DNA of 64,000 nt from Chitinivibrionales bacterium (GTDB lineage: Bacteria; Fibrobacterota; Chitinivibrionia; Chitinivibrionales; JANQEN01), in contig JANQEN010000240.1 in NCBI GenBank assembly GCA_028278335.1, forward strand, positions 1 to 64,000, in the 5' to 3' direction. The stretch's first letter is position 1. Each line of letters begins with the position of its first letter. Below, piece after piece: positions 14,133 to 62,004 of the stretch. A program made the position numbers and the translations under genes. The notes beneath the pieces are model-generated. The model was not told where the DNA came from, searched no databases, and saw nothing but the letters and a program-made list of their open reading frames with translations.

Positions 14133-16733
14133 TTAAGCAATTTCCAGTAATGTTTGAATTCTAACCCGCAGTTGTTCTTTGTCGGAGGTTGAGTAGTCAG
14201 TTTCGATTTTTAAATAGGGCATACCCAGCTTTTCCCTAGCAAAGCGTTCAATAAAGTAGGCTTCCACATTGTAGGTATGGCAGGCCTGCCAAACAAGATC
14301 CACTACCGCATTAGCTTGATACTCTTTGCTAAGCCGTTCGATGAGTTCTGTTCGCCCAGAGTTGGGGGTCATGCAGGAGCAGGGCAGGTTAAAGTGCTTA
14401 CGGGCGATAGCCTCTAAGGGATCACCGGCTTCGCTGACCATCTCCTCAATGGGTTTAATCCCGGAGCAGGCCTCCTGCACCACAACCACACCTCCACACT
14501 CTTCAATTATCTCAATCACCTTTTCCGTACCATGGGCAGTGGGACAGCCAGTAAGCAAAACACGAGGAGCATGGGAAGGTGCAACAGTAAAGCCAGATTT
14601 GGCTCGCTCTTCAACTTTTTCAATAAAACGCTCGATCATTCTGTGGTGACTGGGCATACCAGCAACGCGATAGCGCAGTAGTGCCAGCTCCTTTCCACTC
14701 ACAATAGAAGGCTTGCGCTGTCCCAATCGTTGAGCTTTGACTAGAAGCTGTCGCTCCTTATTCATAGCATGAATCGACTCACGCAACATCTCATCTGTAA
14801 TTGTTTTATTAAATTTTTGCTCCAATTTCTCCTTAAGGGATTGTACTTCCGAAAGCCAATGTTCAAAGGCTTTTTTGGTCTCAACCTTCTGGGTTAGCTC
14901 GAGTACATGGGTGTCTTTTTTCTCTGCAATAAGCTCAAACATTTTCTTTTTACCATCGCAGGTGGTCTCAGCAACAATTAGATCGCAGACAACATAAAAG
15001 GGGCAGCGATTAGTAAGAATATAGCCAAAGGAGGATTTGATAAGGGGGCAGAGATTGGCAGGTAGTACAGATTCGGCAGAGGCAACAGTCCGCTGGTTTG
15101 CGCCACAGAGGCAAACTGGAAGCGCGCCAGCTGCAAGGATCAGATCACGAGGGGTAAACTCGCAGTAGATACCCACAATACCTCGCCCTTTGCGTTGCTC
15201 GTCACGGACAAAGTCGGTCTCCAGGGACATGGAATTTTTAAAGTACTCAAAGGGATCCTGCATAGCTAAATAGGCTGGCTCCTCCTGGGGCATAGAGGTA
15301 AAGGAGATCGATTTTCCCCGAGAGGAATTGATCAACTCGATAAATCCCTGCACCCGATTGACCACCTGTTCGCTCAGTCGTCCTGGCGAGTAGGGCACAT
15401 CAAAGGCAAGCACCGGAAGGCCACACTCCTTGGTGACCATATCAGAGATGACTCGTTCCTCAAAGGCGCAGTGACTGGCACCGAATATCCCGGTGATCAT
15501 AACACCCTCGGCATTATATCGTTTCGCTTCTTCAATAATGCGTTGGGCTCGAAACTCACTGGAACCGATCATGGGATCATCCATGTAATTTTCAGCGATT
15601 GCCTGAAGTGGCGGTTTTGATTCGTCAAGTTCATAAAATGCGTGGGAGATCAAGTATTCGGTACCGGCCACACAACCACCTAGGTCATTGAGCAAAGTTA
15701 GAATAGCCGCATCAGTGGGTGGAGTCACACAAAATATGCGTGCCGGTTCACTTTCAAAGGGAGATTGATTTTTGTCAACTCGCTCCCGTGCACAGGCAAG
15801 TATATCATCTAATACCAGGTGAGACTCCTCAGGTTCACTGCAGTAATGAATAGCAAAAAACTCTGCTAAATAGGCTTCTAAACTGGGGAGTGGTGGCATA
15901 GGTGTGTTATAAACCAAATCGCGCAGCTCACGGACTCGCCTTCGCAATTGATTAAAACCTTTAACACTTTTTCTAAGAGCCTCTTCTGTTACTGGCTTTC
16001 CAGTCACCTCCTCTAGCTTTTTTACAATCCCCTCATATTGGCCTACCAAAAAGTCAACAGCACTAGTCTGATAGGATGAGTTAGCTGCAAAGCTTTTTGC
16101 AAACTCAGTCTTCTTTAAATGGTCTCCTGGAGTGAAGCGAGCTGGAATCTCCCACCAGTGAATCGGATGCTTTTGCCACTCAATTAGTTGCATGATAGCG
16201 GAAAAATCATCACAGCAGGCACCAACACCGGCAAAGGAGAGGTCTGGTTTGGGAAAGTAATCTAAAGTTTTATAGGCTCCCAAGGCCGCACGGATATAGC
16301 AGAGCTCCTCAGTTGCACCAAGTTTGGCTGCTTCATCCAAGAGATGGGGTTCCTCAGAAAAACAGGGTGCCCACCAAAGCTCATCCGCATAAAAGGTGAG
16401 TGTCTCAGGGACTGCATAGGAGATGATCGGTACCTGTCCCAGATCTTTCATTGCTGCAAAGATCTTCCACCCCTTCTCTTTTGCTAAAAAGAGTCGGTCC
16501 TTTTCGCTAAACACAAAAGACCAGAGCCTCAGTGCAGCAAGGCTGTTATCGAATTTTAAACGAGATAAAAGCTGGTCTCCCCGACAGGAGTATTCATGTG
16601 GACTATAGAGGTACTTCACTCCACCGGGTACACAGTTCCGTAAAAAGGTGCAGGAATCTTTATACTCCGCAGGAATATCGGCCATGCGGGCTTCCCACTC
16701 TTGCCCAGTAATTCGTTTTGGTTTTTCACTCAT
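14133..16733 (-). CDS. Fused two-module 2-hydroxyacyl-CoA dehydratase/benzoyl-CoA reductase-family protein
   Basis: The 866-residue protein contains two consecutive HgdB/BcrC-like modules. Module 1 (about 1-455) has SPHEYSCRGDQ, GVGACCDDFSAIMQLIEW and IHWWEIPARF, plus GIFGASHCAFEERVI. Module 2 (about 480-866) has VGIYCEFTPRDLILAAGA, NLCPLIKSSFGYILTNRCPFY (Cys577), AETTCDGKKKMFEL, and CSCMTPN followed by VWQACHTYNVEA. Family members carry [4Fe-4S] or double-cubane clusters and do ATP-driven low-potential reductions or dehydrations. Module 2 is the closest paralog in the window of the TGA-containing protein at 19651. No HgdC-type activating ATPase is encoded nearby. It overlaps the upstream gene by 4 bp. 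The substrate is unknown. Confidence 0.9.
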   Translation of the reverse strand: MSEKPKRITGQEWEARMADIPAEYKDSCTFLRNCVPGGVKYLYSPHEYSCRGDQLLSRLKFDNSLAALRLWSFVFSEKDRLFLAKEKGWKIFAAMKDLGQVPIISYAVPETLTFYADELWWAPCFSEEPHLLDEAAKLGATEELCYIRAALGAYKTLDYFPKPDLSFAGVGACCDDFSAIMQLIEWQKHPIHWWEIPARFTPGDHLKKTEFAKSFAANSSYQTSAVDFLVGQYEGIVKKLEEVTGKPVTEEALRKSVKGFNQLRRRVRELRDLVYNTPMPPLPSLEAYLAEFFAIHYCSEPEESHLVLDDILACARERVDKNQSPFESEPARIFCVTPPTDAAILTLLNDLGGCVAGTEYLISHAFYELDESKPPLQAIAENYMDDPMIGSSEFRAQRIIEEAKRYNAEGVMITGIFGASHCAFEERVISDMVTKECGLPVLAFDVPYSPGRLSEQVVNRVQGFIELINSSRGKSISFTSMPQEEPAYLAMQDPFEYFKNSMSLETDFVRDEQRKGRGIVGIYCEFTPRDLILAAGALPVCLCGANQRTVASAESVLPANLCPLIKSSFGYILTNRCPFYVVCDLIVAETTCDGKKKMFELIAEKKDTHVLELTQKVETKKAFEHWLSEVQSLKEKLEQKFNKTITDEMLRESIHAMNKERQLLVKAQRLGQRKPSIVSGKELALLRYRVAGMPSHHRMIERFIEKVEERAKSGFTVAPSHAPRVLLTGCPTAHGTEKVIEIIEECGGVVVVQEACSGIKPIEEMVSEAGDPLEAIARKHFNLPCSCMTPNSGRTELIERLSKEYQANAVVDLVWQACHTYNVEAYFIERFAREKLGMPYLKIETDYSTSDKEQLRVRIQTLLEIA

Positions 16734-17830
16734 GCTATAGTCTCCAAAAATGCTTCAATCCGTGTGGCTGTGCTGCCTTCGATACCTTCACCATACCCGG
16801 TATTTAATACTAAGGTTGGCAGAGGAAAGGATTTCTTAAGTCGCACCTTTTCAGTATACCAGAGGTCGCAAAAAAGAAGCGACTTTAAAATGATCCCTGT
16901 TACATCATAGGTGTCTATATAATATTGTATGCGTTCATAGACTGCTGAATTGGGCCGTGTACGAATACCAGCAGGTTGTTTAAAAATGTTGAATGCTAAA
17001 TGGGAAACCATTTGCTCATCGGCAACATCCTCTAATGGAGTGATCCCCTCAAATGCATTGAGCCCGGAAGAATTAAGCAACAAGGGAAAGACATGATGTT
17101 TAGAGAGCAGTTTCAGTATGGTATCATCCTCTTCACCCAACACACTGCCAAGAAGAATAATCTTTGAATGAGGTGTAAAGGTTTGGATTGAAGGAATAAG
17201 GTCGTTTAAAAATGCATTTAAGGATTGGGGACGTACCCAGGAAAAAAGCGTACCCAGTTTATGAAGAATAACTGGGTCAACATTCCCCTGTTGATATAGA
17301 GTCTTTAATAGTGATGCTGCATCAGCTCGATGCTGCTCATACTCGCGCACCTTTTCATAATCGATAGTGGCATTGGCAAAGGCCGCAATGTTTTCACATA
17401 CAGAGGAAACACCAGCACTATAGTACTCCTTTGATTCTTTAGATATAGTGGCCGGCATCTGCACAGGAAAAACAGGTTTACCAATATCAACGGAAATGCG
17501 CTCTAGGGTTCGACGCATTTGGTCACAGGGGATGAGCCCTACCACAATATCGGTGAGGGCATGCAAACCACTTTCACGAAGATAATTGCCCAGAATTGAT
17601 TTGCAAAAAGGGCAGGCATCAGGACGAATAAGTTGTTCACAGGCACTTTCCATCTCAATGGTAGTTCCAGAGACAATGCGAATTGGACGGTAACCCATTC
17701 CATAGAGAAGTGCTGGAGGAAAGAGTCGATTAAAGAGAGCTGCCACAGGTGTTCCCTGTTGCTTTTCCTCTTTTAAAACACTAACTTCCTTTTTTTTAAA
17801 TTCTTCGATTAATTGCACACACTCATTCAT
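16730..17830 (-). CDS. 2-hydroxyacyl-CoA dehydratase-family subunit (HgdB-like)
   Basis: The 366-residue single-module homolog of the dehydratase/benzoyl-CoA reductase family has the domain's Cys-containing segments in order: IRPDACPFCKSILGNYL (cluster region), VGLIPCDQMRRTLERI, and a C-terminal LLFCDLWYTEKVRL with Cys, followed by LPTLVLNTGYGEG. It is more divergent than the downstream 866-residue protein. The stop overlaps that protein's ATG (ATGA-type, 4 bp), implying tight coupling and probably a heteromeric complex. The operon (this gene, fused protein, AhpD-like) has a 238-bp leader with a TTTAGTGCACA element at about 17972. Reaction unknown. Confidence 0.82.
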   Translation of the reverse strand: MNECVQLIEEFKKKEVSVLKEEKQQGTPVAALFNRLFPPALLYGMGYRPIRIVSGTTIEMESACEQLIRPDACPFCKSILGNYLRESGLHALTDIVVGLIPCDQMRRTLERISVDIGKPVFPVQMPATISKESKEYYSAGVSSVCENIAAFANATIDYEKVREYEQHRADAASLLKTLYQQGNVDPVILHKLGTLFSWVRPQSLNAFLNDLIPSIQTFTPHSKIILLGSVLGEEDDTILKLLSKHHVFPLLLNSSGLNAFEGITPLEDVADEQMVSHLAFNIFKQPAGIRTRPNSAVYERIQYYIDTYDVTGIILKSLLFCDLWYTEKVRLKKSFPLPTLVLNTGYGEGIEGSTATRIEAFLETIA

Positions 17831-18012
17831 TTATTTATTCCTGTTTAACCAATATTGCACACTTTTTCTATCTTTTTTGAATTTATTTAATTAAAATGAC
17901 AAATTGTCCGCTTCTTCAACCATACATTTGAAATATATACAATTTATATCACAACAGCCCAAACTTTATTAATTTAGTGCACATTATTTGTTTTATTATT
18001 TTACGATTAAAA

Positions 18013-18040
18013 AAGGTCACTCTTCTTCAAGAGTGACCTT
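18013..18040 (-). terminator. Terminator of the methyltransferase gene
   Basis: Perfect 12-bp arms AAGGTCACTCTT (18013-18024) and AAGAGTGACCTT (18029-18040) with a 4-nt loop. On the minus strand it follows the methyltransferase stop by about 30 nt and is followed by a run of T residues, a classical intrinsic terminator. Confidence 0.88.
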
Positions 18041-18068
18041 ATCATTTTACTTGTATCGAGAAGTTTTA

Positions 18069-18878
18069 TTATTCCTTTACAGCAATCCAACGTCCACGAC
18101 TAAACTTTTTCGCATGAGCCATTTCAGACCAGAATCCCATTTCTGCACCCTTGGCTTGGAAGAATTCCATGTTATCGCCAACAATTTTTAGCGCATCATA
18201 GAGGAGCTGTTTGGTAAGATAAGCTATATAGAGGTCGATCATTTCGGCAAAGTGATCGTTTAAATCCTCTGAGGATTTGAGCGTTAGTCCATACTTTGCA
18301 ATAAGATCTTCATACCCCTTTACTGTTTCAAGATAGGGAAAGGTCATTCCCATCTGACTGTTACAAACTCGTTTTGCCTCTTCAGGGCTCAGTCCTGCAG
18401 ATCCTTCAATCCAATCGGAAAAAGCCAAAGTTCCGCCGGGCTTAAGTACACGGGCAGCTTCAGCAATAATTTTCTCTTTATCAGTAACATAGCACCAGGC
18501 ATCTTCGCCCCAAACTACATCAAAAGTGTTATCTTCCCAAGGGACGCTGCAAACATCACCAACTTTATACTGGATCTTATCAGCAAGACCTTCACCTTGG
18601 TCTAAAGCCACTGCTTGATCAACCATGTGTTGTGTACCGTCTAGACCGTAGCCCTCAACCTTAAAATTTTTTGCCAAAAAGCGTAAACCAGCACCTAAAG
18701 CACTGCAAAGATCTAAAACCTTATCCCCTTCTTTCACACCAGCTTTTTGAGCCAAAACCATTGATTCAGCAAATCCACCAATGTGGATCTGTTCACCCAT
18801 AACAAGTTTCCACAGATCTCCCTCTGCGCCAGAGTAGACCTTTTGCACATCGTTAAGACCAATATCTAATTTTTGCAT
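18069..18878 (-). CDS. Class I SAM-dependent methyltransferase
   Basis: The 269-residue enzyme has a Rossmann methyltransferase core: motif I VLDLCSALGAGLRFLAK (about 54-70), motif II YGLDGTQHMVDQAV, motif III VGDVCSVPWEDNTFDVVWGEDAW, and VLKPGGTLAFSDWI. The N-terminal GEQIHIGGFAES and overall layout resemble glycine/sarcosine/dimethylglycine N-methyltransferases, but the substrate is uncertain. A very strong ribosome-binding site (AGGAGG, 4 nt before ATG) precedes it. It is followed by an intrinsic terminator at 18013, so it is separate from the dehydratase operon downstream. It lies between two sets of dehydratase-family genes and may modify a related substrate; that is inference. Confidence 0.85.
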   Translation of the reverse strand: MQKLDIGLNDVQKVYSGAEGDLWKLVMGEQIHIGGFAESMVLAQKAGVKEGDKVLDLCSALGAGLRFLAKNFKVEGYGLDGTQHMVDQAVALDQGEGLADKIQYKVGDVCSVPWEDNTFDVVWGEDAWCYVTDKEKIIAEAARVLKPGGTLAFSDWIEGSAGLSPEEAKRVCNSQMGMTFPYLETVKGYEDLIAKYGLTLKSSEDLNDHFAEMIDLYIAYLTKQLLYDALKIVGDNMEFFQAKGAEMGFWSEMAHAKKFSRGRWIAVKE

Positions 18879-19379: not shown

Positions 19380-19650
19380 TTGAACCTATTCTTAGTAAAT
19401 TCACAAATTTAGTTCACAATATCTACAATAATATAATAATAAGTTAAATTTAAAACTCACCTTTTTTGTAATCTAACTTTATTTTTAATTTCTTCCTTAT
19501 AAAAAATTAATAAAAGTCACATTTTATTCGCAAAATTAAAAATTTGTTCGATTTTTTTCCGAATGGCCCAGTTAAACATATTATTTTTTTATAAGATTAG
19601 TATATATTAAAATTTGGGGGTGCTATTCACCATTCACTAAGGAGGAGTAT
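19380..19650. promoter_or_regulatory. AT-rich divergent promoter region
   Basis: A very AT-rich stretch between the EamA gene and the TGA-containing dehydratase homolog. It ends in a strong ribosome-binding site (AAGGAGGAG at about 19639-19647) for the ATG at 19651. No conserved operator is obvious. Confidence 0.45.
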
Positions 19651-20934
19651 ATGTCCAAAGATTTTCGGCAATTATGGACCGATCTTGGCGTAAATCTCGA
19701 GCTCCACGACCAACTAATGGCCAACACAGCCAAGCTTCATGAGCGCACACATCTCTCTCAAAAAAATCGTCCCCGCTCCATGGAATACTTTGACCACTCT
19801 TTACACGCAAGCCATGCAGAGCGTGTTGCAGAGATCAAGGAGTATCGTGATCAGGGCGGTAAATCAATTGGAACCTTTTGTATTTATGTTCCTGATGAGA
19901 TCGCCTACGCAGCGGATGTTTTACCAATTCCACTTTGCGGAGGCTCGGGGTGGTCCGTTAACTATGCGGACAAAATGTTTCCCCGGGATATCTGTCCCTT
20001 GGTACGTTCAACCTTTGGAATGGCGCTCAGTGGTACCTGACCCTATAAGAAACTGAAAGATTTCGCAGTTGGCGAAACTACTTGTGATGCAAAGAAAAAA
20101 GCTTGGGACCTTTTAGGGTTAAAAGTGTTAGAGGTACCGCAAAGAAAAAGTGAACCTGATCAGGAACTCTGGCTAAAAGAGGTCTACCGTTTTAAAGAGA
20201 TGGTAGAAAATCTCTCCGGTGTTACTATTACACCTGAGAAGCTCAAGGAAAAAGTCAAACTGGTAAATAAAAAACGAACACTTATGCAGAAGATCAACGA
20301 GTTTCGGAAACTTGATAACCCTCCAATTTCAGGATTAGATGCCCTGCTTGTAGCACAGGTCTCTCTTAATCAGGACATTGAGGTATTTAACACCAAGTGC
20401 GAAGAGTTGATCGAGGAGCTGCAACAGCGGGTCAATGAGGGAATCTCTGCTTATGAGAAATCTGGCCCTCGTATTTTATTTGCTGGAACCCCATCGCCAT
20501 TGGGAAATGCAAAGGTTCACTATGTGGCAGAAGCATCGGGTATGCAAATAGTTGCCGATGAATCCTGTACTGGTCTTCGCTACTTTAGAGATCTTGTAGA
20601 TGAAACGCCCGAGGATATGGATGGGATGATTAGAGCTATTGCAGATCGATACATGAAAATTGACTGTTCCTGTTTTTCACCGAACACGGAACGTATTGAA
20701 AATATCGTTGAAGCTGTCAAAGAGTATCGTGCTGATGGCGTGGTGCACAACATACTCCAGTTCTGTCATGGATTCAATGTTGAAGCTAAGGCAATTGATA
20801 TGGCTTTAGAAAAAATCAATATACCCTCTATGAAGATAATCAGTGACTACTCTGATGAAGATATTGAACAGATTCGGGTACGAACAGAATCCTTTGCAGA
20901 AATAGTAGCAACAAACGAGGCTGCACCAAGTTAA
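19651..20934 (+). CDS. 2-hydroxyacyl-CoA dehydratase-family protein with in-frame TGA; candidate selenoprotein
   Basis: The reading frame from the ATG at 19651 to TAA at 20934 is 427 residues if the TGA at 20038-20040 (codon 130) is read through. The frame is continuous on both sides: CPLVRSTFGMALSGT, TGA, PYKKLKDFAVGETTCDAKKK. The paralog at 14133-16733 has CPLIKSSFGYILTNR, Cys577, PFYVVCDLIVAETTCDGKKK, so the TGA replaces a conserved Cys exactly. A hairpin TTTCGC-AGTTG-GCGAAA puts its loop 27 nt after the TGA. Other family Cys positions (DCSCFSPN, LQFCHGFNVEA) are intact. The family carries Fe-S or double-cubane clusters. A rhodanese lipoprotein and a barrel follow. Best reading: a selenoprotein reductase of unknown substrate. 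Alternative: a disabled gene. Confidence 0.75.
20061..20077 (+). promoter_or_regulatory. Possible SECIS hairpin after TGA 20038
   Basis: Stem TTTCGC (20061-20066) with GCGAAA (20072-20077) and loop AGTTG. The loop starts 27 nt after the TGA and has G at its second position, fitting bacterial SECIS models. A competing AACTG/CAGTT pairing is possible. Confidence 0.5.
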
Positions 20935-21117: not shown

Positions 21118-22071
21118 ATGAAACACTATATCTATGGAATAGTTTTTTTATTGGTTTTGGTCTCGCTATTTACTAGTTGCGAAACAGTATCAAGTAATGT
21201 CCCGACAGATCCAATTGAGGATCTTATAGTTGATGCTTCTTGGCTTAACAGCAATCTATCAAATAGTAATTTAGTTTTAATTGATGCTCGTGGGTTCCCA
21301 CCAAAAAACGATAGCATTTATAAGGCGGGTCATATTAAGGGTGCTATAAACGCTACTTATACAACATTTATGCGCGCCTTTTCAAGTCCTAAAGTTCCTG
21401 GTTGGGGAAACATTCTACCCGCGGACAGCTTAAGTCCTAAACTGGCGACACTTGGATTAGATGCATCAAAGACCATTGTTGTTTATGGTGATAATGATGC
21501 CACTGACCCTGCCCGTTTTGGTCAGGAGGGTCGTTTGGTCTGGACTTTTTGGATGGCCGGATTAACAAATGCGAAGATGTTAGACGGTGGATTCCGTAAT
21601 TGGGTAGCACAGGGATATCCCACAGAAACAACGGTTAATACGCCAATCCCTTCCACCTTTTCAGTTGCCTCCTTAGATCAGAGTTTTACCACAACAACCG
21701 CATATGTCAAAAATCACCTAAATTCTTCAACTGTTATCATTGATTCCCGCACGAAGGATGAATATGATGGTGTTCCCATGTGGAATGCTCCACGGGATGG
21801 CCACTATCCTGGTGCGATCCATTTTTTCTTTGCCAATGTGCTCAATTCGGACAACACCTTTAAAACAGGTGATGCAATTGAAGCATTGCTGACTGCCTCT
21901 GGTATCAAGAAAACCGATGACATTGTCATTTACTGCACTTCAGGAATCCGCTCTGCCCATCTCACCATGGTCATGCGAATTTTAGGCTACACCAATGCCA
22001 AAAATCATGATGATTCATTTATGGTCTGGGCATCAGATCCAACACTACCATTAGAGACAAAGGATGAATAA
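21118..22071 (+). CDS. Rhodanese-type sulfurtransferase lipoprotein
   Basis: The 317-residue protein has a lipoprotein signal (VLVSLFTSC, Cys20) and two rhodanese modules. The N-terminal one (LVLIDARGFPPKND to MLDGGFRNWVAQGYP) has lost its Cys, as is usual in thiosulfate/mercaptopyruvate sulfurtransferases. The C-terminal one keeps the active loop Cys273-Thr-Ser-Gly-Ile-Arg followed by SAH. It should transfer sulfane sulfur (or selenium) in the periplasm or at the outer membrane. It starts 183 bp after the dehydratase-family selenoprotein candidate on the same strand. The gap contains weak hairpins (AGGGGTG 20948, CACCCCT 20977), so co-transcription is uncertain. A link to sulfur or selenium oxyanion metabolism is inference. 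Confidence 0.9.
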   Translation: MKHYIYGIVFLLVLVSLFTSCETVSSNVPTDPIEDLIVDASWLNSNLSNSNLVLIDARGFPPKNDSIYKAGHIKGAINATYTTFMRAFSSPKVPGWGNILPADSLSPKLATLGLDASKTIVVYGDNDATDPARFGQEGRLVWTFWMAGLTNAKMLDGGFRNWVAQGYPTETTVNTPIPSTFSVASLDQSFTTTTAYVKNHLNSSTVIIDSRTKDEYDGVPMWNAPRDGHYPGAIHFFFANVLNSDNTFKTGDAIEALLTASGIKKTDDIVIYCTSGIRSAHLTMVMRILGYTNAKNHDDSFMVWASDPTLPLETKDE

Positions 22072-59370: not shown

Positions 59371-60426
59371 TTAAGAAAGTACTTCAATGCCTTTTCCCTC
59401 GTGCACCTCTCCAATAACCCAGAGAGATTCCTTTTGCGCAGCAAAATCTTTTTGCAGCTGGGATAATCGATCTTTCGGAATAGCAGCTAAGAGTCCACCG
59501 GAAGTCTCTGGTGTATACAAAAGCATCCGCATCTCTTTTTCTATAGAGTCAGCAAAGGTAATTTCCTTTTGGTAACAGTGCTCATTTTTATTTGATCCTG
59601 CTGGAAAGAGCCAATTTTTAGCATACTCACAGGCGCCATTTAAAAAGGGAATCTGCTCAAGTGTGATCTGTATATTGACACCGCTCTTTTCAGCCATTTC
59701 ATGGGTATGCCCCAAAAGTGCAAATCCAGTAATGTCAGTGCAGGCATGTACCTCGCCAGCTTGCAACAATTGCGCAGCCGATTTATTAAGCTTTTTCATA
59801 CTGATCACAGCCTGTTCCATATGATTTTTCTGTGCTTGATCAGCTTTCAATGCAGTCGTTATAATACCAACTCCTAAGGGCTTGGTTAATATCAAAAGGT
59901 CACCTGGTTGCGCACCGGATTTTGTTAAAATCTTTTGGGGATGCACAACACCCATAACAGAGAGTCCAAATTTTGGTTCCTTATCATCCACTGTATGGCC
60001 GCCAGCCAGTATAGCTCCAGCTTCGGCCATTTTTTCAGCGCCGCCCTTTAAGATGGTGCTAATTACCTCTGTTGGTAAACTACAGGGGAAGCCGCAAATA
60101 TTCAAAGCTAAAAGCACCTCTCCACCCATAGCATAAACGTCACTCATTGAGTTGGCCGCGGCAATAGCACCAAAATCATAGGGATCATCCACAATAGGGG
60201 TGAAAAAGTCTAATGTTTGAATAATAGCTTTATCTTCACTAACCTGATACACTGCTGCATCATCGCTAATGTCCAAGCCGATTAAAAGCTCAGGACAGGA
60301 GATGTTGGCAAACACGTTTCTGAGAGGCTGCAGAACCTGCGCCAGGGTCTCAGGACCCATTTTCGATGCTCAACCAGCAGCACTGGCCATTGTCGTAAGC
60401 CTGATAGGTGCTTTGTCGTTACTCAT
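59371..60426 (-). CDS. selD: Selenide, water dikinase (selenocysteine-containing)
   Basis: With the start at ATG 60426 (RBS AGAGGA 5 nt upstream) the frame is 351 residues, including an in-frame TGA at 60370-60372 (codon 19). The sequence around it, MASAAG-Sec-ASK, matches the catalytic motif of SelD, where Cys17 and Lys20 of E. coli align with Sec19 and Lys22. The rest is typical: GLDISDDAAVYQ, TPIVDDPYDFGAIAAANSMSDVYAMGG, AGGHTVDDKEPKFG, ACTDITGFALLGH. SelD makes selenophosphate from selenide and ATP. Sec-containing SelD is a known natural variant. Hairpin GGGTC-CTGA-GACCC lies after the TGA (loop 16 nt downstream). Confidence 0.95.
60345..60358 (-). promoter_or_regulatory. Possible SECIS hairpin after selD TGA
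   Basis: On the minus strand GGGTC-CTGA-GACCC forms a 5-bp stem with a 4-nt loop, the loop starting 17 nt after the TGA. The spacing fits the lower end of the bacterial SECIS range. Confidence 0.5.
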
Positions 60427-60843: not shown

Positions 60844-62004
60844 TTAATTCCCCTGTTTAGAATGCGATATTCTTTCAATAGCATCAACCACTTTATCCAC
60901 CTCTTCTGATGCATTAAAGTAGCCAAAACCAAGTCTTACCGTTCCCTCTGGAAAGGTACCAAGTGTTTTATGAGTCGCCGGGGAGCAATGCAATCCTACT
61001 CTGCAAAGAATATCATACTCCTCATCTAACCGCAAGCCCAGTTCAGCAACATTCAAATCCTGTACAGTAAAAGAGACATTTCCAGTTTGCAAAGAAGCAT
61101 CCTGGGGACCATTCAGTGTCACCCCCTCAATGTTTTGTAAACCTGTAAGTGTCTGGGTAACGAGACTCATCTCCTTATGTCTAATAGCACCCATACCAAC
61201 CTCCTCAATCCAGGAGATTCCTGCATGTAAACCGGCAAGTCCCACAACATTAGGTGTGCCACACTCTAAAAGATCCGGTAAAAAGGCTGGCATCTCCTCA
61301 TGCTGTGATCGGCTGCCAGTTCCACCCCGTAAAAGCGGCCTAAAAGCTTCTTCCGACACCCGTTGTCCAATCAAAAGTCCGCCGGTTCCCATAGGACCAT
61401 ACAGTGCTTTGTGCCCAGTAAATCCTAATAGGTCAATACAACAGCTCTCCATATCCACTGATATTACTCCAGCACTTTGAGCAGCATCAACTAAGAAGAG
61501 GCAATCCATCTCTCGCACCCATTGTCCAATCTCGAAAATGGGTTGGATGGTCCCTGTTACATTAGAAACATGGTTTATCGCCACTAAGTGAGTGTTACTT
61601 TTGCATGCTTTTCTCACATCATCGGGATTGATAAGCCCAGCTGAAGAGCAGGGAACTACTGATAACTCCACACCTTGGTGTTCCAAATCACGGAGAGGAC
61701 GCATGATCGCATTATGCTCCATGCTGCTGGTGACCACATGATCACCGGGCCTTAATAATCCATACAGGGCAAGGTTAATTGCCTCGGTGACATTTTTAGT
61801 AAATACGGTCCGTAAAGGATCGATGGCACCAAAAAAGTCACTGACAAGCTCCCGGGTATCATCGACCACATGACCAGCTTCATTGGCAAGACTATGTCCA
61901 GCTCGACCGGGATTTCCCCCAATTTCATTGAGATAGTGGACCATAGCCTTTGCAACCGGCTCCGGTTTTGGCCATGATGTTGCAGCATTATCAAGGTATA
62001 TCAT
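60844..62004 (-). CDS. Class V aminotransferase (cysteine desulfurase-like, selenium-linked)
   Basis: The 386-residue PLP enzyme starts IYLDNAATSWPKP, has PLP Lys199 in GFTGHKALYGPMG, and a C-terminal active-site loop CRVGLHCSPATH. It fits the TIGR01977-type subfamily (CsdB-like proteins with DUF3343 and selD). Such enzymes release sulfur or selenium from Cys/Sec for SelD. It is the first gene of a cluster that includes DUF3343 and selD. The DUF2914 gene lies 55 bp upstream. Confidence 0.92.
   Translation of the reverse strand: MIYLDNAATSWPKPEPVAKAMVHYLNEIGGNPGRAGHSLANEAGHVVDDTRELVSDFFGAIDPLRTVFTKNVTEAINLALYGLLRPGDHVVTSSMEHNAIMRPLRDLEHQGVELSVVPCSSAGLINPDDVRKACKSNTHLVAINHVSNVTGTIQPIFEIGQWVREMDCLFLVDAAQSAGVISVDMESCCIDLLGFTGHKALYGPMGTGGLLIGQRVSEEAFRPLLRGGTGSRSQHEEMPAFLPDLLECGTPNVVGLAGLHAGISWIEEVGMGAIRHKEMSLVTQTLTGLQNIEGVTLNGPQDASLQTGNVSFTVQDLNVAELGLRLDEEYDILCRVGLHCSPATHKTLGTFPEGTVRLGFGYFNASEEVDKVVDAIERISHSKQGN

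Follow-up and report, generated by a model that had tools for sequence, protein, structure and literature searches.

A predicted selenocysteine-containing DCCP in Fibrobacterota and its possible ties to selenium metabolism

The window analysed here, a stretch of 64,000 nucleotides from a Chitinivibrionales (Fibrobacterota) genome, carries a gene of the double-cubane (DCCP) family in which an in-frame TGA would encode selenocysteine in place of the usual cysteine. The explanation that we propose, and that as a whole we consider very probable, is that of a Sec-DCCP in which a near-invariant, non-ligand cysteine at column 130 would have been replaced by selenocysteine, inserted at UGA by SelB and tRNA-Sec and probably aided by a hairpin a short distance downstream. 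An [8Fe-9S] cluster, predicted to be held by Cys77, 115, 145, 306, 339 and 372, would receive electrons, through ATP hydrolysis, from a reductase of the acyl-CoA dehydratase activase type, as the family suggests, and a gene for this likely partner of the DCCP lies on another contig of the same genome (C9); the cluster would then, again to judge from the family, reduce a small substrate. Such a protein would add one family to the selenoproteome. The features concerned are collected in Table 1.

Table 1. Features of the window that bear on the predicted Sec-DCCP and on selenium use
Feature	Position	Strand	Remarks
Shine-Dalgarno-like AGGAGGAG	19640..19647	+	recognised in the sequence by eye
Predicted Sec-DCCP coding sequence	19651..20934	+	427 residues with U130; single in-frame TGA
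TGA predicted to be decoded as selenocysteine (U130)	20038..20040	+	codon 130; TGA likewise in G034 and G167
SECIS-like hairpin, TTTCGC / AGTTG loop / GCGAAA	20061..20077	+	complementary stem in all three Sec genes
SelD (selenide, water dikinase)	59371..60426	-	own in-frame TGA (U19) at 60370-60372; would supply selenophosphate
Cysteine desulfurase family protein	60844..62004	-	scores above the TIGR01977 cut-off; match to the selenocysteine lyase SclA model under its cut-off

By its sequence, the readthrough product is a DCCP of the 2-hydroxyacyl-CoA dehydratase superfamily. With a cysteine placed at position 130 it matches NF040772 (double-cubane-cluster-containing anaerobic reductase) over its full length at 414.6 bits, the cut-off being 350, and PF06050, also full-length, at 5.1e-104, which bears out the 2-hydroxyacyl-CoA dehydratase / double-cubane family named in the first-pass annotation. 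Within NCBIfam 20.0 this general DCCP model is the sole one above its cut-off; the HadC, BzdN and BcrC models stay far under theirs (125.6 against 700, 91.5 against 453.8 and 67.5 against 421.15 bits, respectively). The nearest solved structures are the DCCP entries 6eno and 7yyl. An AlphaFold2 model (mean pLDDT 90), for which 25 family sequences were used and position 130 was set to Cys, superposes on 6eno, 7yzm and 7yyl with a TM-score of 0.94-0.95 and an rmsd of 1.4-1.6, so that a DCCP fold is predicted. These three entries, which we take to be the DCCP of Carboxydothermus hydrogenoformans, resemble the window protein in matching it over the full length (41% identity in the structure alignment) and in carrying cysteine at the six ligand columns, and differ from it in having cysteine at column 130 where the window protein would have selenocysteine.

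A search of 167 Fibrobacterota genomes, that of the window included (G000, in 301 contigs), revealed a TGA at the identical codon in G034, a metagenome-assembled genome of the same family whose record is entitled Fibrobacterota bacterium CSMAG_2808. Moreover, a collection of 84,980 species was scanned for TGA followed by Pro-Tyr/Phe and, at a fixed spacing, by Glu-Thr/Asn/Lys-Thr-Cys-Asp. Five loci were obtained, two of them DCCPs: that of G034 and L043, in the GC-rich metagenome-assembled genome G167; the other three (L042, L044 and L045) are chance matches. As the pattern requires both Pro-Tyr/Phe after the TGA and the downstream Cys motif, other Sec forms may escape it. The contig of L043 is entitled Candidatus Kuenenia stuttgartiensis, a label that its GC content of 61% makes doubtful. 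The G034 and G167 proteins are 77% and 65% identical to that of the window, and a TGA common to codon 130 of three genomes, of which two are metagenome-assembled by their titles and the third is the window's own, goes beyond chance.

Family sequence continues in frame both before and after the TGA, as had been noted from the window alone. Between the window and G034, the residues ahead of the TGA agree at 110 of 129 positions and those that follow it at 218 of 296, and the codons differ at first, second and third positions 21, 6 and 83 times upstream and 61, 33 and 177 times along the 296 codons downstream; this third-position bias on both sides points to selection at the protein level on both sides. 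The column of the TGA holds cysteine in 24 of the 25 non-Sec family rows, three of which are of the fused-paralog type, and tyrosine in the remaining one (L038); in the 866-residue paralog encoded in the window the alignment places Cys577 there, in agreement with the first reading of the sequence. (The partial L057, with a stop at 312, is in this column table and was left out of the tree; L037 is in neither.) In the tree, the three Sec proteins form a single clade with support of 100/100, and their nearest relatives are two Cys proteins, from G451 and G402, which belong to the phylum of G167.

That the TGA is instead a true stop, whether through pseudogenization, a sequencing error or the existence of two polypeptides (129 residues and a 269-residue product of a GTG-start frame), would agree with the list of open reading frames, which gives two of them (19651-20040 and 20125-20934), and with the use of TGA as terminator in 7 of the 36 window ORFs counted. 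Nevertheless, we hold it to be very improbable: codon 130 is TGA in two further genomes, with third-position-biased change on either side, the cysteine of ligand column 145 (20083-20085) would fall in neither of the listed frames, and the hairpin sequence that follows is conserved.

The Sec form was sought in wider groups as well. Within the class of G168 (record title Fonticella), which we take to be Clostridia, 42 of 391 genomes carry a DCCP at E <= 1e-90, and none of the listed matches has an internal stop. In the phylum of G167, 392 genomes gave five DCCP matches in four genomes at the same threshold, with a TGA in G167 only; its order comprises two genomes in the collection. The search for further Sec-DCCPs returned nothing among viral contigs and, among plasmids, 24 records, every one below 60% identity.

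A hairpin had been reported 27 nt past the TGA. It is upheld: the structure spans 21-37 nt past the TGA, its loop begins at 27 nt, and all three Sec genes keep its arms in this position, the sole difference within the G167 hairpin being an A to C change that adds a C-G pair. Over the 60 nt that start at the TGA, mean column identity among these genes is 91%. The local energy of the 21-nt hairpin is -5.8, -5.8 and -8.0 kcal/mol in them and ranges from 0 to -6.3 in 25 non-Sec genes, the GC-rich Cys gene L056 being as stable at this position (-6.3). When codon usage is taken into account genome by genome, the four codons needed for the stem would be chosen with probabilities of 0.014, 0.10 and 0.016, from usage tables that are small (4 hand-picked ORFs for G034 and 8 for G167); their product, 2e-5, assumes an independence that is not fully true of related genes. 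In the GC-rich G167, the required GAT and GAA are minority codons (0.17 and 0.21). Against the hairpin, the minimum-energy structure of the 60-nt fold of G034 is a different pairing, 8.7% of synonymous recodings of the window gene alone yield an equally stable hairpin, the best three-way conserved codon block over the whole gene is not significant (permutation P 0.097), and at gathering scores Rfam finds no SECIS family in the window. We regard the hairpin as evidence that supports selenocysteine without proving it.

Concerning the machinery, a tRNA-Sec scores above the gathering threshold in G000, G034 and G167, and selA and selB were found in G000, which thus holds all three of the genes whose presence the first-pass annotation had left to be looked for; SelB was not found in G034, a genome that is 68% complete. 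The selD gene that had been seen in the window is confirmed there. It contains a TGA of its own (context SAAGUASKMG), past which the ORF list begins the gene, and so the genome holds a second, long-known Sec gene; the SelD of G451 presents cysteine in the equivalent motif, SAGCASK. The two window genes are alike in that both would depend on UGA recoding in one genome, and unlike in that SelD with selenocysteine belongs to the selenoprotein families already verified (PMC13188914, Table 1). The cysteine desulfurase family protein encoded beside selD is a possible selenium donor; section 7 of PMC13188914 describes the natural donor route to SelD as incompletely elucidated. Altogether, the TGA conserved in three genomes, the cysteine of the homologs, the hairpin and the presence of selA, selB, selD and tRNA-Sec sustain the selenoprotein reading made at first sight.

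Two selA-selB-tRNA-Sec sets exist in G000, at C6:8636-12088 (L072) and C244:31447-35026 (L073), their SelA proteins being 38.5% and their SelB proteins 32% identical, and G000 is alone among the 167 Fibrobacterota genomes in giving two SelB matches at E <= 1e-60. The tRNA-Sec of C6 resembles that of G034 (80/93) and the copy of C244 that of G167 (75/95). The second set could be either an acquired second system or contamination. In G451 (C32), L074 is a SelD that carries an AhpD-like domain at its C-terminus and lies beside the Cys-DCCP and selB.

Where residue 130 sits can be approached through BzdN, whose [8Fe-9S] cluster has Cys36, 73, 100, 263, 293 and 327 as ligands according to a passage of PMC11971306. 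In a sequence alignment that assumes a small indel for Cys100, these columns correspond to the six cysteines named above for the window protein; among 28 family rows they hold only cysteine, one row being gapped at 77, and column 130 is not one of them. In the model, helix 116-127 begins beside ligand Cys115, residue 130 lies beyond the far end of that helix, and strand 138-142 returns towards Cys145. Judged from this secondary structure, in a model in which the cluster itself is absent and in which 10-residue mean confidence near the site is moderate (75, 58, 75 and 81 for residues 91-130), Sec130 is probably about the length of a helix away from the cluster.

The first-pass annotation had imagined a selenocysteine at or near an Fe-S or double-cubane cluster, as a ligand or close neighbour that might tune a very low potential. 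Column 130 does have a ligand column on either side of it in the sequence (115 and 145), selenium can plausibly ligate clusters on chemical grounds, and the confidence of the model around the residue is only moderate. The data nevertheless do not support this idea, which we consider unlikely: six other constant cysteines align with the ligands of BzdN, BzdN itself holds its cluster with phenylalanine at column 130, and in the model a helix separates residue 130 from ligand 115.

BzdN, HadC and MbdN (class I benzoyl-CoA reductases and 2-hydroxyacyl-CoA dehydratases) share superfamily and fold with the window protein and, for BzdN, the cluster type expected here, as described in a passage of PMC11971306. 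They differ from it in having neither Cys nor Sec at column 130, where BzdN presents Phe, MbdN Ile and HadC a gap. With cysteine in all the sampled DCCPs except L038, the column looks specific to DCCPs, and the Sec form flags it as worth testing. A pair formed by Sec130 and Cys96 beside the cluster was also considered, as both are lost in L038 and BzdN, and was rejected: MbdN retains Cys96 without Cys130, and the model sets the two residues at opposite ends of the domain.

At the level of whole genomes, DCCPs and SelB go together in two bacterial groups, which leads to a testable claim on the function of the family. Long-form DCCPs are found in 10 and SelB in 14 of the 167 Fibrobacterota genomes; SelB is present in 9 of the 10 genomes with a long-form DCCP and in 5 of the other 157 (Fisher 9e-11, phylogeny ignored), and the tenth DCCP genome, G034, has a tRNA-Sec. 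Two genomes with other subtypes, G001 (L036, without SelB) and G031 (L038, with SelB), were left out of this count by hand, and G039, with the partial gene L037, was counted; including the former two, SelB is present in 10 of 12. Among the 391 Clostridia genomes, DCCPs of any form (E <= 1e-90) occur in 42, SelB in 60 and both in 34, that is, SelB accompanies 34 of 42 genomes with a DCCP against 26 of 349 without (Fisher 4e-25, phylogeny likewise ignored), the exceptions being 8 DCCP genomes without SelB and 26 SelB genomes without DCCP.

The genomic neighbourhoods point in the same direction. In G167 the Sec-DCCP adjoins the gene of a putative selenium transporter, seleno_YedE; the Cys-DCCP of G451 has selB 3.5 kb away on one side and selD 0.8 kb away on the other, and that of G402 comes after an activase. 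The activase on contig C9, one small stand-alone activase in G000, has YedE at a distance of 0.9 kb and YedF at 2 kb; the stretches examined of G000, G034 and G167 show no activase next to the Sec gene.

A genuine but nearly neutral Sec130 would give these observations another meaning: an opportunistic exchange of Cys for Sec, the co-occurrence with selenium genes reflecting a shared anaerobic life. The Cys form prevails in relatives, G167 retains a Cys paralog (L058), DCCPs and selenocysteine use are each common in anaerobes, and the co-occurrence tests take no account of phylogeny. Even so, we find this account rather improbable, for each of the three clade members retains selenocysteine, the other two being 65-77% identical to the window's, and yedE, yedF, selB or selD are neighbours of a DCCP or an activase in G167, G000 and G451.

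Returning to a functional selenocysteine, the genomic context suggests an enzyme of selenium assimilation that would reduce a selenium compound in the direction of the selenide that SelD uses, and the selenol of Sec130 would act off-cluster as a redox or selenium-carrying group; this we advance as a tentative proposal that could well prove wrong. More doubtful is the broader idea that DCCP and activase together are the ATP-driven reductase so far missing from bacterial selenium assimilation, an enzyme that in the Sec clade would itself be a selenoprotein. Were it true, selenium in oxidised, elemental or methylated form would be turned into selenide for SelD, and the loop would be closed, the cell spending selenocysteine to acquire selenium.

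A family-level link between DCCPs and selenium is already partly known, and two leads, from the portions of the sources concerned, agree on it. Table 1 of PMC5322559 lists for Slackia a CoA-enzyme activase alongside YedE, YedF and DUF3343, as well as subunits of 2-hydroxyglutaryl-CoA dehydratase alongside the LysR-like gene and YedF; a passage of PMC10418091 provisionally ties DCCP to selenium metabolism. The biological role of DCCPs is stated to be unknown in a passage of PMC11971306. What is new here is the Sec form of DCCP and the DCCP-SelB counts. In the full-text search, no report of a Sec-containing DCCP or hydroxyacyl-/hydroxyglutaryl-CoA dehydratase was recognised among the papers listed, most of which were judged by their list entry; the terms dehydratase and cubane, looked up in PMC9312934, PMC12013277 and PMC1794560, gave no hit; and in the 2026 inventory (PMC13188914), with its 119 families and subfamilies, no row of Table 1 is for PF06050 or a DCCP.

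A further comparison concerns DUF523, which we take to be the thiouridine-desulfidase family. A passage of PMC11971306 counts the latter in part within the DCCP superfamily. The DUF523 selenoprotein of deep-Sep (PMC12013277, in part; PMC13188914, Table 1) is, like the window protein, a predicted selenoprotein; unlike it, it carries its selenocysteine in the motif SxSUG and is not a DCCP, and the portion of PMC12013277 concerned mentions no TGA homolog of it elsewhere.

As for the surroundings of the gene, a rhodanese (3-mercaptopyruvate sulfurtransferase-like) protein is encoded directly after the Sec-DCCP, at 21118-22071 (+). This lipoprotein and the barrel that follows had been read as hints of a sulfur/selenium or reductive pathway; the selenium link stands on the other evidence given above, and the two genes are weak hints, as the stretches available for G034 and G167 show no homologs of them next to the Sec gene. 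In G034, genes for a MATE transporter and an aminotransferase lie downstream of the Sec-DCCP, and the contig ends just upstream of it; in G167, YedE is located upstream and the rhodanese model is absent from the downstream ORFs scanned. The window rhodanese protein was directly compared with just one G034 gene. A conserved operon of Sec-DCCP, rhodanese and barrel was rejected on these two neighbourhoods.

On the other side of the gene, the minus strand of the window carries at 14133-18878 a block composed of a methyltransferase, an HGD-D protein of 366 residues and the double HGD-D protein of 866 residues. Judged by size, order and sequence starts, with a weak model match in the case of the methyltransferase, this block seems to recur in G167 (L091, C44), with an adjoining activase gene.
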